Assembly (NCBI GenBank): GCA_029553475.1
Contig: JAKPKV010000020.1
Coordinates: 1 to 64,000 of the forward strand
Origin: Armatimonadota bacterium
Lineage (GTDB): Bacteria > Armatimonadota > Hebobacteria > CAIYQO01
Length of the DNA: 64,000 nt
Reading direction: 5' to 3'
The position numbers and the translations under genes were made by a program. The notes beneath the pieces are model-generated. The model saw only the letters and a program-made list of their open reading frames with translations, was not told the DNA's origin and made no database searches. Positions within the stretch are counted from its first letter, which is position 1. Each line of letters begins with the position of its first letter. Below are positions 1,621 through 34,375 of the stretch, in pieces.

Positions 1621-2328
1621 ATGATGATCATCACGATTTCACGCCAGGGGGGCGCGAACGGCGAACTCATCGGACGGCTGGTCGGCGCGCGGCTCGAGTA
1701 TCCGGTGTATGACCGCGAGCTGGTGGAGGAGGTCGCTCGCCGCCTGCAGATAGATCCCGACCTGGTGCGCCACTTCGATGAGGCGACCATCAGTCCCATC
1801 CAGTCCATCATTCAGGAATGGCGCACGTCGGTGAACGAACTGGTGTATGAACGCTACCTGCGCCAGGCGCTGCGCGATATCGCCGCGACCGATCGCGCGG
1901 TCATCATCGGGCGCGGGGCGAATTTCGTGCTGCGCGGCGCGCACATCCTCAACGTGCGCCTGGTGGCGCCGCTGGAGCTGCGGGTGGAGATTGTCCGCGC
2001 GCGCGACGGGGTGTCATTGGAGGGCGCGCGGCACACGGTGCGCCGGCTGGATGCGGAGCGCGCGCAGTTCGTGCGCGCCACCTACCATCACGATATCGAA
2101 GACGCGACTCAATACGATCTGGTCATCAATCTGGCGGAATTCCCCCCGGAATCGGCGACGGACCTCATCGTCCACGCCGCACGGGTGAACGCCGACGCCG
2201 GCCTGCCGGTTGATGCCCGCGCCACCCTGCCGCAGCATATCGCGCTGATGGCGCGCCATCGCCGCCCCACGCGGCCGGGGATGGTAGAAGAAGGGCGGAA
2301 ACCGAGGCGGGGACCGGGAACCGGCTAG
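1621..2328 (+). CDS. Cytidylate kinase-like family protein
   Basis: A 235-residue cytoplasmic protein of the cytidylate-kinase-like family (a P-loop kinase relative). It starts IITISRQGGANGELIG, where the glycine-rich stretch replaces the canonical Walker A. YDRELVEEVARR and AVIIGRGANFVL follow, as in this family. True CMP kinases are similar in size, but the family's substrate is often unknown, so nucleotide specificity is not claimed. ATG 1621 was chosen because GGAGGAAGGAGG lies just upstream; a longer open frame back to 1408 overlaps purF and has no such signal. The TAG stop is part of the CTAG duplicated around a palindromic element (2329-2486). It is convergent with the Rrf2 gene. Confidence 0.8.
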   Translation: MMIITISRQGGANGELIGRLVGARLEYPVYDRELVEEVARRLQIDPDLVRHFDEATISPIQSIIQEWRTSVNELVYERYLRQALRDIAATDRAVIIGRGANFVLRGAHILNVRLVAPLELRVEIVRARDGVSLEGARHTVRRLDAERAQFVRATYHHDIEDATQYDLVINLAEFPPESATDLIVHAARVNADAGLPVDARATLPQHIALMARHRRPTRPGMVEEGRKPRRGPGTG

Positions 2329-2490
2329 CAGCCCGCGGATACAGTCGTTACTCGCCTTGTTTGATCTTTTGCCGCCATGCCGCGTTGCAGATATAGCGTT
2401 TGCATTCTATGTGACACACTATATCCGCGCCTTGCCTGACGCCAAAATCTCGGCGCAATCCGAACAATGACTGTATCCGCGGGCTGCTAG
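2325..2490. mobile_element. Palindromic MITE-like element B1 with CTAG target duplication
   Basis: The 158-bp body (2329-2486) has perfect 18-bp inverted ends, CAGCCCGCGGATACAGTC and its complement, flanked on both sides by CTAG (2325-2328, 2487-2490). There is no coding capacity. The left CTAG contains the TAG stop of the cytidylate-kinase-like gene; the right CTAG, read on the other strand, contains the TAG stop of the Rrf2 gene. Removing the body plus one CTAG leaves two convergent genes whose stop codons overlap by two bases. Confidence 0.8.
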
Positions 2491-2912
2491 GCGGGGAGCT
2501 GATCCTTGCGCTGCGCGGCGATATCGGCCAGCGAATAGCGGCCCAGCACGGCCTGCACCGCGTCCTGCGCCTCACGCCAGACGGGACTGAGCGGGCACGC
2601 GATCTGCTGCGGGCAGCCGGTGGCGGTGAAACACTGGTTGAGCGCGAACGGGCCTTCCACCGCTTCGATGATCTGCGAGAGGGTGATCGCCATCGCCGGC
2701 CGGCCCAGCGTGAAGCCGCCGCCCGCGCCGCGGAACGACTTCACCAGCCCGGTCTTCGCCAGCGATTCGAGGATTTTGCGCACGAAGTTGACGGGAATGC
2801 GCTCCGCCTCGGCGACTTCGCTGGCCATCACGCGCGCATCAGGCGCTTGCGCCGCCAGGTAGACGAGGCTCTTGATGGCGTATTCCCCCGCGCGAGTGAG
2901 TTGCATGGCCAT
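2487..2912 (-). CDS. Rrf2-family Fe-S transcriptional regulator
   Basis: A 141-residue winged-helix regulator of the Rrf2 family (IscR, NsrR, RirA, CymR relatives). It opens MQLTRAGEYAIKSLVYLA, has the helix-turn-helix VNFVRKILESLAKTGLV and the wing SFRGAGGGFTLGRP. Three cysteines follow the dimerisation helix as CFTATGCPQQIAC (C-x5-C-x5-C), the usual Fe-S ligand set, so a redox, iron or NO-sensing role is likely. ATG 2912 is preceded by GAGGAG. No isc, suf or nitrosative-stress genes are in the window, so targets are unknown. Its TAG stop lies in the right-hand CTAG copy flanking element B1. Confidence 0.88.
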   Translation of the reverse strand: MAMQLTRAGEYAIKSLVYLAAQAPDARVMASEVAEAERIPVNFVRKILESLAKTGLVKSFRGAGGGFTLGRPAMAITLSQIIEAVEGPFALNQCFTATGCPQQIACPLSPVWREAQDAVQAVLGRYSLADIAAQRKDQLPA

Positions 2913-18515: not shown

Positions 18516-18531
18516 AGCGCTTACGAACGGC

Positions 18532-18700
18532 TTAGAAATTGTCCGAAAAGTCTCGGTGTGGGGCTGCTGAGGGGATGCCGGCTTGGATCAAGGCGGACGG
18601 CCGAGGCGCTATCGAGAGAGATAGGGTGAGGACGGCCAACGCCGAGCCAAGCCGGAAGCCACCAGCAGGCACGCGCCGAGACTTCTCGGACAGTTTCTTA
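18532..18700. mobile_element. Palindromic element A1 with TTA target duplication
   Basis: The 163-bp body (18535-18697) begins GAAATTGTCCGA and ends TCGGACAGTTTC, flanked by TTA on both sides (18532-18534, 18698-18700). The interior is about 90% like A2 at 34208-34372 in the same orientation, including GGGGATGCCGGC and GGCGCTATCGAGAGAGA. There is no coding capacity. It abuts element B2, giving a nested or adjacent pair. Confidence 0.85.
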
Positions 18701-18864
18701 GAGCCTGTTGACGAAGAGGTGTTCGCCACCTCGCTTGCTCTCATCGCGCCAGGCTGTGGCACGATTGTGCGCCGTATCGGGCCGGGATACTGCCGACAAA
18801 TCGTGTCGCGCCTGCTACGACGATCTCGGCGCGATCTGACACACACCTCTTCGTCAACAGGCTC
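18701..18864. mobile_element. Palindromic MITE-like element B2
   Basis: A 164-bp element with perfect 22-bp ends, GAGCCTGTTGACGAAGAGG plus TGT and its complement. Outer flanks are CTTAG-like on the left and CTGAG on the right. Size, arm length and an internal GATCTCGGCGC near the right end resemble B1 (ATCTCGGCGC in the same place). Its right arm supplies the last codons and stop of the PIN-domain gene. Confidence 0.75.
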
Positions 18865-19291
18865 TGAGCAGCGTGGGATCAAAGAGCGGAACGCCGACTA
18901 TTGCCATGACTGATTGCATGCGGGCATCGAGTGAAGCGATGGGCAGGTTCTCTCTGAGCCCCAGTTCGAGATACGCCGCGTCATAACTGGTTATCGAGTA
19001 TGTCCGGCCGATATCAATGAGATGATCGGATATGGCGCCGGCGCTGGTAGTCTCGACAGTGATTGGTAGTTTCCGAAGCAGGCCCAGGAAGTTTTCCGTC
19101 ATGGCGATTGTCAGGCGCCCACGTCGTTCTGACACCAGCAGCACGTTGGCGACTTCAAGCGTCCAGATTGCCGGCACCATCGCTTGCATGGTGAGCAGCG
19201 CATCCAATACGCTATCCGCATAGGGAGTGTTTTCATCTTTCAGTGCCCATGTCAGCGTGACCGATGTATCCAGTACGAAACGCACACTCAT
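18854..19291 (-). CDS. PIN-domain toxin (VapC-like), 3' end formed by element B2
   Basis: A 145-residue PIN ribonuclease of a type II toxin-antitoxin pair. The acidic metal site is complete: the Asp of FVLDTSV, Glu of WTLEVANVLL, Asp of ITSYDAAYLELG and Asp of IASLDARM. It overlaps its antitoxin by 4 nt (ATGA). The final residues RAC and the TGA stop are encoded by the inverted repeat of B2, so the original C-terminus has been replaced. The PIN fold seems complete, so the protein may still work. Other VapC-type proteins are about 125-145 residues, so the truncation is probably slight. Confidence 0.88.
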   Translation of the reverse strand: MSVRFVLDTSVTLTWALKDENTPYADSVLDALLTMQAMVPAIWTLEVANVLLVSERRGRLTIAMTENFLGLLRKLPITVETTSAGAISDHLIDIGRTYSITSYDAAYLELGLRENLPIASLDARMQSVMAIVGVPLFDPTLLRAC

Positions 19292-29329: not shown

Positions 29330-30574
29330 ATGCCTGCTCGTGCATCTGACCGGGGCTTTACCCTCATTGAACTCCTGGTCGTCATCGCGATCATCGCGAT
29401 GCTCGCGGCCATCCTGTTTCCGGTGTTCGCCAAAGCGCGGGAAAAGGCGAATCAAAATACCTGCCTGAGCAATCAGCGGCAGATCAACATCGCCATCCTG
29501 ATGTGGGCGCAGGATCATGGCGAAACGCTGCCCACCGCCGCCGTCGCCGGGCGCGCGCTGGCCGGCAATCTGACCCCGGTGCGCATCGCGCAAGCGCCGG
29601 GCGGCGGCAACCTCTGGTCGGAACTGAATCTGGAAAAAGGGCTGCTCACCTGCCCGACGGCGGCGAAGCAACTCGCCGGACGCGGTTACGGGTATGCGAA
29701 ATACTTGTCCGGGGTCACCGTGGGCGCGCTCCCCGATCCCATGACCCAGGTGGTGACGGCGGATGGCGGTGACGAGAACATGCTGCTCAACACCGGCGCC
29801 GATGTCGAGAAGCGCCACGGCAGATACGCGGTGGTGAGCTACGCCGATGGGCACGTGGGGCAGATCTCCGCGTTGGGCATGGATGCCACCCTCTTTCAAT
29901 CAGATATTTCGTCGCAGCTCTTCGACGGCCAGGAAGCATGGACCGCCGACGCGCGAACGGGCGGCGTCGTCATTGACGCGGGCGCGAAATCCATCCAGAT
30001 CAATACCGTCACCAGCGCCACGCCCTACGGGCGCGGCCTGCTGCTCGACTTCGACCCCATAGCGGATGGTCTGCAACCCCTCACCGCCGGCCAACTGGTC
30101 TTCAGGGCGACCGTGCCGGGCGGTCAGAACTCCATGCATGGCAATCAGCCCTCCATCATGGTCGTCTTCCCCTCGGTCACCGACCTGTCCGCGTATGAGA
30201 TCGCGTTCCCCCCCTATTCGGGCGGTTTCACGAACTGCGGCTCCCTCAATGGCGCCATCCCGAATAAATGGCAGGGATTCATTGATTATGGCACCTGGTC
30301 ACCCACCTTCGAGGGCGGCAGCACCTCGCCGGCTTCGCAAAACAGCGATGGCAGCAAGATGATGCCCATCGCCACCACGTTCACCCTGACGCTGTCGCTC
30401 GCGATCGGCACGGGAAAATCGTCCCTGATCTGCGACTTCGGCGCGGGACAGCGCTTTTCGTGGACCGGCAACGCCGTCACCGGCCCGGTCACCGGCATCT
30501 GGTGCGGGATGGGGAAGATCCACAGCAGCAAGATGAAGTTCACCAATATCACACTCGGCCGCTATGTCTTTTAG
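29330..30574 (+). CDS. Pseudopilin-like secreted protein 2
   Basis: A 414-residue paralogue beginning 30 nt after the first gene. It has [43 protein letters not shown] and HGRYAVVSYADGH (H-x9-DG). The C-terminal half (about 195-414) is a beta-rich domain (GRGLLLDFDPIADGLQPL, FRATVPGG, GIWCGMGKIHSSKMKFTNITL) resembling that of the third protein. ATG 29330 follows GGGAGGAGAG. The TAG stop touches the left end of element B3. The spacing implies one transcript with gene 1. Confidence 0.88.
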   Translation: MPARASDRGFTLIELLVVIAIIAMLAAILFPVFAKAREKANQNTCLSNQRQINIAILMWAQDHGETLPTAAVAGRALAGNLTPVRIAQAPGGGNLWSELNLEKGLLTCPTAAKQLAGRGYGYAKYLSGVTVGALPDPMTQVVTADGGDENMLLNTGADVEKRHGRYAVVSYADGHVGQISALGMDATLFQSDISSQLFDGQEAWTADARTGGVVIDAGAKSIQINTVTSATPYGRGLLLDFDPIADGLQPLTAGQLVFRATVPGGQNSMHGNQPSIMVVFPSVTDLSAYEIAFPPYSGGFTNCGSLNGAIPNKWQGFIDYGTWSPTFEGGSTSPASQNSDGSKMMPIATTFTLTLSLAIGTGKSSLICDFGAGQRFSWTGNAVTGPVTGIWCGMGKIHSSKMKFTNITLGRYVF

Positions 30575-30735
30575 GGCGTGCTCACACTATCGGCGATGCC
30601 CAGCTTTTGTGGGGATTTTTCGCCAGACAAGGCGGAAAAATGCCGCTGTGGCCGGGACCACAGCAAATTTTGACAACGCTGTATGGCGGAAAATACGCCA
30701 AAAGCTGGGCGTTGAGCGGTAGTGTGAACACGCCC
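30574..30735. mobile_element. Palindromic element B3 between pseudopilins 2 and 3
   Basis: A 162-bp element whose 35-36-bp ends (GGGCGTGCTCACACTA... and ...TAGTGTGAACACGCCC) are complementary with several mismatches. The interior has further hairpins (CGCCAGACAAGGCG, CTGTGGCCGGGACCACAG). No target duplication is clear. The preceding gene's TAG overlaps its first base. Size and layout match B1 and B2, but the sequence is diverged. Any read-through transcript to pseudopilin 3 must cross this structure. Confidence 0.65.
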
Positions 30736-30788
30736 GAAACGGGCAGTCGGCTTCTCGGCATCCGCGCTCACTGATGAAGGGAGAGATT

Positions 30789-33525: not shown

Positions 33526-34208
33526 CACGGGGTCACCCCCGCCGGCAGCACGGTGATGGGCGCCATCGCCACCAGTCCCGCGTATTGCGCGATGACGCGG
33601 CCCGTGCCCGGCGCCGCGGCGCGGAACAGGCCGCCCGGCGTCACGCTGCCGGCGGGCAGCCGCGGCGCGAGGGAGCCCATCCCGCCCTTCAGCACCCAGC
33701 TGGCCGGCACGGGAACGAGTTGTCCGGCAGGGGTGATCCCCTGCGCGGTGAAGACAATTTCGTCGCCGGGATGCGCGTGCCCCACCGCCGCCGGCGTGAT
33801 GAGCAGGCTGGCCACGGCGTCCGCCATCTCCGGCGCCAGCATCAGCGCCACCCCCACGCGGTCACCGTGGCGCTCCACCTCCGCCTGCACTTCGGCATAG
33901 AGGGCGGCCGGCTGCCCGGCGCGGATGCGCACCGGCCCTTGCGGCACGGTGCGGAAGATGAAGTAGCCGTCGGCGTCGGTCGTCGCGCGCAGCACCGGGC
34001 CGCTTTCGGGCGCCAGCTCCACGGTGATGCCGCTCACCGCCTGCAGCTCCGCCGCCCGGCGCGTGAAGCCCTCCAGCGGCACGGCGCGATAGACCCAGCC
34101 GTCAATGGTGCCGATGGGCACGCTGCCGCCGGTGAGGCCGTTGCCGCCGGCGCAGCCCGTCAGCCACCCCGCGATGAGCGCCAGCATGAGCAGCAGCGCG
34201 AGTCTCAG
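33525..34208 (-). CDS. Lipoprotein with carboxypeptidase-regulatory-like domain; start altered by element A2
   Basis: The mature protein begins at the lipobox Cys in AGWLTGCAGG. It has a carboxypeptidase-regulatory-like beta sandwich (YRAVPLEGFTRRAAELQ, VTDADGYFIFRTVPQGPVRIRAG-like pattern) and a C-terminal Ig-like segment ending ITVLPAGVTP. The natural start seems to have been ATG AGA CTC GCG CTG CTG, overlapping the TGA of the preceding gene; element A2 has separated ATGA from this sequence, leaving CTG at 34208. Options now are CTG 34208, internal ATG 34187, or read-through from ATG 34376 across the element, which keeps the frame. Expression may be reduced. Confidence 0.6.
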   Translation of the reverse strand: MRLALLLMLALIAGWLTGCAGGNGLTGGSVPIGTIDGWVYRAVPLEGFTRRAAELQAVSGITVELAPESGPVLRATTDADGYFIFRTVPQGPVRIRAGQPAALYAEVQAEVERHGDRVGVALMLAPEMADAVASLLITPAAVGHAHPGDEIVFTAQGITPAGQLVPVPASWVLKGGMGSLAPRLPAGSVTPGGLFRAAAPGTGRVIAQYAGLVAMAPITVLPAGVTP

Positions 34209-34375
34209 AAACTGTCCGAGCCGTCTCGGTGTGGGGCTGCTGAGGGGATGCCGGCCTGGATCACGGCGGACGTTCGAGGCGCTATCGAGAGAGAGATAGG
34301 GTGAGGACGGCCAACGCGGAGCCAGGCCGGAAGCCACCAGTAGGCACGCGCCGAGACTGCTCGGACAGTTTCTCA
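34205..34375. mobile_element. Palindromic element A2 with TCA target duplication
   Basis: The 165-bp body 34208-34372 begins GAAACTGTCCGAG and ends CTCGGACAGTTTC, flanked by TCA on both sides (34205-34207, 34373-34375; TGA on the minus strand). It is about 90% like A1. The right-hand TCA is the stop codon TGA of the HTH-TPR gene. It carries no stop in the lipoprotein frame. Confidence 0.88.

Follow-up and report, generated by a model that had tools for sequence, protein, structure and literature searches.

The stretch of DNA analysed here, referred to as the window, covers positions 1 to 64,000 of contig JAKPKV010000020.1 from an Armatimonadota bacterium (GCA_029553475.1, here called G000). 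Near its start, a cytidylate-kinase-like gene and a gene for an Rrf2 family regulator face each other across a mobile hairpin of 166 bp, here called B1, which consists of an imperfect palindrome of 158 bp and the tetranucleotide CTAG on either side (table 1). The Pfam searches identified the product of the first gene as Cytidylate_kin2 (PF13189, 1.8e-41) and that of the minus-strand ORF as Rrf2 (PF02082, 1.7e-37). The original prediction, that CTAG bounds the palindrome on both sides and supplies the TAG stop codons of the 2 genes, was exact with regard to both the coordinates and the ends of the ORFs at positions 2328 and 2487. It also held that neither protein had been disrupted, and this was borne out when the flanks were joined in silico at a single CTAG, whereby both proteins kept their last residues and the 2 TAG codons overlapped.

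Table 1. Positions in the window of B1, its target-site copies and the flanking genes
Feature	Start	End	Strand	Remarks
Cytidylate-kinase-like gene	1621	2328	+	TAG stop at 2326-2328, inside the left CTAG; PF13189
Left target-site copy, CTAG	2325	2328	.	Single 4-mer in the sister species G001
B1 MITE, palindromic, 158 bp	2329	2486	+	Imperfect palindrome along its entire length
Left terminal inverted repeat, CAGCCCGCGGATACAGTC	2329	2346	+	
Right terminal inverted repeat, CAGCCCGCGGATACAGTC on the minus strand	2469	2486	-	
Right target-site copy, CTAG	2487	2490	.	
Rrf2 family regulator	2487	2978	-	TAG stop at 2487-2489, inside the right CTAG; PF02082; coordinates are those of the listed ORF, whose start is probably at 2909 or close to it

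The terminal inverted repeats of B1 are perfect over 18 bp, or 22 bp if the CTAGs are counted. The 22-nucleotide end sequence CTAGCAGCCCGCGGATACAGTC matched only the 2 ends of B1 in the window, in opposite orientation, and no further copies were found there with up to 3 mismatches allowed; by chance, 0 matches were obtained in 100 shuffles of the window. B1 is, as is typical of MITEs, a short element with terminal inverted repeats that is too short to encode a transposase.

Empty Sites and Additional Copies

In the sister species G001, the genes for the kinase and the Rrf2 regulator are adjacent to each other without the element, and the junction reads ...GAACCGG-CTAA-GCGAG..., with one CTAA in place of the 2 CTAGs. 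The element-free locus agrees with the expectation of an empty site in relatives, but the 4-mer differs from CTAG by one base. The kinase gene in G001 ends with a TAG located 7 nucleotides further upstream, and only the Rrf2 stop codon overlaps the 4-mer, so that the step in which both genes ended in a shared CTAG is not seen in this relative. Insertion at a single CTAG-type site, together with the duplication of that site, is supported by the empty sites in G001 and by the additional copies described below, whereas for the 2 overlapping TAG codons we infer that, if the duplication at B1 was perfect, an ancestor in the lineage had both stop codons in one CTAG.

A total of 4 copies belonging to 2 subtypes were identified in G000, each of which abuts a TAG stop codon. 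The second copy (C13:133692-133857) is 96% identical to B1, and its site in G001 is the cleanest of the empty sites, with a single CTAG (TGGCA-CTAG-CGCG) and the remainder aligned. The diverged subtype was collapsed at 4 contig ends, which synteny with G001 paired into 2 copies, C112/C158 and C94/C121. The single-copy counterpart of the former in G001 is CTAC. The latter is flanked by CTAG on one side and by CGAG, which is also present in G001, on the other; hence, no duplication is evident for this fourth copy, which has probably lost its right flank. Elsewhere, copies of the element occur in intergenic DNA or separate genes that run in the same direction. It was also noted that a different insertion-like palindrome, GCTCTTTGATTC..GAATCAAAGAGC with CTGAG on both sides, occupies the intergenic spot on contig C204 of G001 (L074) that corresponds to the C94/C121 flanks, where G000 contains the B1-type copy.

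Distribution Across the Armatimonadota

A covariance model was built from 3 sequences in G000 and one in G002, a family-level relative. It identified full-length homologs of 164-170 bp, 5 in G002 and 6 in G056, which represents another family within the phylum, as well as one further homolog in G056 with an extra insert. Matches to the generalised ends, CTAGCAGCCnnCGGATAAAGTC, amounted to 20 in G056, 20 in G234, 37 in G235, and 26 in G241, and to zero in the reversed controls for these 4 genomes. Many of the elements with the same ends are shorter (128-148 bp) and have different interiors. Several CTAG-type elements in G235 (L303, L306, L308, L311, L314) contained, in their interiors, hairpin repeats of the CCTCCCCCTAACCCCCTCCTAA type, as if other repeats had been captured by the end repeats.

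Among the 41 two-ended elements identified outside G000, 26 are flanked by CTAG on both sides, one by CAAG on both sides (G002 C440) and one by CTAA on both sides (G056 C44). The CTAA and CAAG pairs indicate that all 4 bases were duplicated, and a 4-bp YTAR duplication of this kind is characteristic of IS5-type elements. Target-site duplications, empty sites in relatives, and several copies per genome are likewise features of MITEs. We conclude that the B1 locus represents a genuine, well-supported transposition event and that the MITE family is spread across the phylum.

The exact end pattern gave 3 matches in the GTDB genomes, one of which was G002, while the other 2 look like chance matches. 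The matches to parts of B1 in G050 and G083 were unrelated. The ends were found neither in plasmids nor in viral contigs, where a looser pattern yielded only a flood of chance matches, and the Rfam search identified no family, as the highest score, 15.6 bits, did not reach the gathering threshold of 45. Within the literature searched, the family is apparently undescribed.

Other palindromes were also observed. The elements at positions 18531-18698 and 34204-34373 of the window are palindromes of about 170 bp that are about 90-95% alike, with the ends GAAA(C/T)TGTCCGA and apparent 3-bp TNA duplications (TTA and TCA). The first of these adjoins a palindrome of 172 bp at positions 18697-18868 with different ends, GAGCCTGTTGACGAAGAGG, which scored 65.6 bits (E 7e-13) with the B1 covariance model, and the interior is apparently common to elements with different ends. 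A 170-bp palindrome at positions 30570-30739 scored 42.8 bits (E 1.7e-7) with the B1 model and has no CTAG ends. In G002, the element at positions 1501-1671 of C440 (L141) has AGAG..CTGA ends and end sequences like those of the 18531 family in the window, and its interior motifs TTTGATCTTTT and AAAATCTACGGCGCGATCC resemble those of B1; the families may exchange ends. Finally, a family of near-perfect palindromes of 121-151 bp with the ends (G)TAGTCCGCGCCCTCCGCGGCGCG is present in at least 3 copies in G000 (L099, 3793-3943; L109, 14280-14400; L111, 10337-10457).

CTAG Scarcity and Association With Stop Codons

The CTAG motif occurred 130 times in 747 kb of G000, as compared to 567 expected occurrences, which corresponds to a 4-fold avoidance. 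The TAG stop codon of a gene called by a simple codon-usage script was located inside CTAG in 15 of these 130 cases, 5 of which were element flanks. Of the 8 flanks, 5 contain within the CTAG the TAG that terminates an ORF, these ORFs ranging from 175 to 546 codons, and each insertion has at least one such flank. All 4 insertions abut a stop codon as compared to 10 of the 123 other CTAGs (Fisher 1e-4), and the difference was retained when only non-coding CTAGs were considered (Fisher 6e-4). No CTAG that ends 2 genes simultaneously was found in the 747 kb of G000 as now assembled.

Outside G000, mechanically defined ORFs of at least 100 codons had their stop codon in the 4-mer of 12 of the 41 two-ended elements. 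The stretches that contain these elements have 122 other CTAGs, 13 of which hold such a stop codon (P = 0.006). The enrichment was also observed when the limit was set to 150 codons (P = 0.03) or 200 codons (P = 0.01). Of the individual genomes, G241 and G235 showed it clearly, whereas it was weak in G002 (1/5) and G056 (1/9).

CTAG is self-complementary, and its duplication therefore leaves C-TAG on the left side for a gene on the plus strand and on the right side for a gene on the minus strand. Because C-TAG is re-created on both sides, a gene that ends in C-TAG is unharmed by an insertion into its last codon. Insertions at such gene ends would survive, while those in CTAGs within coding sequences or promoters would be lost, and the excess of stop codons may thus reflect a survival bias. 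B1 would be the limiting case, in which the target CTAG ended 2 facing genes together. Targeting of gene ends as such, or a benefit of the hairpin, may also lie behind the location at stop codons.

The duplication of a self-complementary 4-mer that holds a stop codon provides entry at the gene end on either strand at no cost to the protein. This is a simple rule that can be tested in any genome, and it would explain the accumulation of such elements at 3' ends with no need to assume that terminators are targeted.

Hairpin Structure and Covariation

The folding energy of the B1 RNA deviated from that of shuffled sequences with z-scores of -6.8 for the plus strand and -9.2 for the minus strand. 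An alignment of 14 copies from 3 genomes yielded 32 consensus pairs, with standard pairs in 93% of the cells. Changes on both sides were observed in 14 of the 32 pairs, and in 45 cells as compared to 16.5 in shuffles. When the partner was slid by 1 to 3 columns, pairing fell to 32-42%, a comparison that is biased in favor of the structure since this was derived from the same sequences. Variation such as that at columns 35-138 (C-G, G-C and U-A) would hardly be expected if pairing were of no importance and the arms had not been copied from each other. The same mismatched positions recur among the copies.

No terminator-like site with a stem and a T-run was found on either strand of B1. The longest T run inside the element is 4 nucleotides, none follows it, and B1 thus lacks the U-tract that succeeds the G+C-rich stem in an intrinsic terminator. 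The strong bidirectional hairpin of the original prediction is real on both strands, but its suggested use in termination was left unsupported, since there is no U-tract. Transcription of either gene probably copies B1 into the 3' end of its mRNA, where it would form a long hairpin. This hairpin would more probably shield or mark the 3' UTR than act as an intrinsic terminator, and stabilization of the 3' UTR, as proposed for YPAL in Yersinia, is no less likely than termination.

Mode of Insertion and Alternative Explanations

We consider it very probable that B1 belongs to a family of MITEs that target YTAR in the manner of IS5, and that it was inserted with a 4-bp target duplication. The elements are mobile, duplicate 4 bp, prefer CTAG, recur at TAG stop codons, and conserve their pairing; the transposase presumably acts in trans and would be IS5-like. 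Most of the genomes are incomplete drafts, and the stretches of them that were read revealed no transposase accompanied by matching ends. Among G000, G001, and G002, PF13546 was absent, PF01609 gave weak matches in G000 and G001 only, with no matching ends nearby, and PF13358 was present in G001 and G002 only, with no B1-type ends nearby. No IS5-type transposase could be connected with the family in these searches. Distant pairs of ends in G235 and G234 were considered as autonomous elements and rejected, as the ends mismatch and the ORFs resemble host genes. That a palindrome ended by CTAG separates the 2 stop codons by chance, with no insertion, is next to inconceivable: beyond the palindromic nature of CTAG itself nothing speaks for it, and there are repeated copies, empty sites, and ends common to many genomes. 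A MITE of the IS630/Tc1-mariner type, starting with G and ending with C, in which the TA within CTAG is duplicated, would accord with the CTAG preference for which IS630 is cited, and sites with CTAG on both sides cannot separate a duplication of TA from one of 4 bp. We regard it as improbable, since at the CTAA site in G056 the nucleotide that adjoins the element differs according to the target, as it should for a 4-bp duplication, and the CAAG pair in G002 likewise fits IS5-like YTAR better than the TA of IS630. Nor did any of the PF13358 loci carry B1-type ends.

The position between convergent genes, the stability of the hairpin on both strands, and the covariation of its pairs could also suggest that selection has maintained the hairpin because it terminates transcription of the 2 facing genes in both directions. 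This is still less probable, given the lack of a terminator-like site and U-tract, the gene pair without the element in G001, and the location of the other copies. A further explanation, which is compatible with a MITE and which we view as a possibility of some weight though short of even, is that the full-length hairpin is needed for the life of the element, either in the 3' UTR, where the RNA structure would be a stabilizer or a site for RNase III, or during transposition, in the form of single-stranded DNA that has folded, such that the pairs are under selection. The retention of both pairing and a length of about 168 bp despite diverged interiors, the two-sided changes, the loss of pairing in the slid controls, the recurrent mismatches, and the parallel with YPAL all point in this direction. 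On the other hand, template switching during replication can also equalize the arms of a palindrome, related sequences may exceed shuffles without selection, and elements of 128-148 bp with the same ends and other interiors have also spread. More doubtful is the composite picture of a phylum-wide family of mobile hairpins of about 168 bp with selected pairs and a preference for TAG stop codons, which add a removable structure to 3' UTRs and leave the proteins untouched. The covarying hairpin provides a good case for asking whether the palindromes of MITEs serve transposition or RNA.

Comparison With Known Systems

Like YPAL/RU-2, members of the B1 family are about 168 bp long (164-170 bp in G000, G002, and G056), palindromic throughout and intergenic, with both empty and filled sites. 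YPAL, according to what De Gregorio et al. reportedly described in 2006, inserts just downstream of stop codons. It is an intergenic palindrome of 168 bp with empty and filled sites and a proposed effect on the stability of the upstream mRNA, and its inverted repeats are internal rather than terminal, with duplications of 3 to 26 bp (PMC2229807). This description sets it apart from B1, which has perfect terminal repeats and a fixed 4-bp CTAG duplication. SPRITE, which is named in PMC10969869, is a pneumococcal repeat described as resembling Rho-independent terminators; like B1, it is a hairpin that moves and may have a role at the ends of transcripts, but B1 contains no such site.

The MITEs derived from IS630, such as RUP and Correia/NEMIS, share with B1 a small size and a palindromic structure, and a preference of IS630 itself for TA in CTAG is cited (Tenzen and Ohtsubo 1991, from the references of PMC2170065). 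However, these elements duplicate TA, whereas the sites of the B1 family indicate 4 bp. IS5 duplicates YTAR, with CTAG in 15 of 24 listed sites and also CTAA and CAAG (PMC5493358), and MITEPsy1 duplicates CTAG or YTAA (PMC3189936). The B1 family resembles both in its 4-bp duplication, which is mostly CTAG and sometimes CTAA or CAAG, and is distinguished from MITEPsy1, with the terminal repeats GGAAGGTCTGAAAAAGCC, by its own ends, CAGCC..CGGATAAAGTC.
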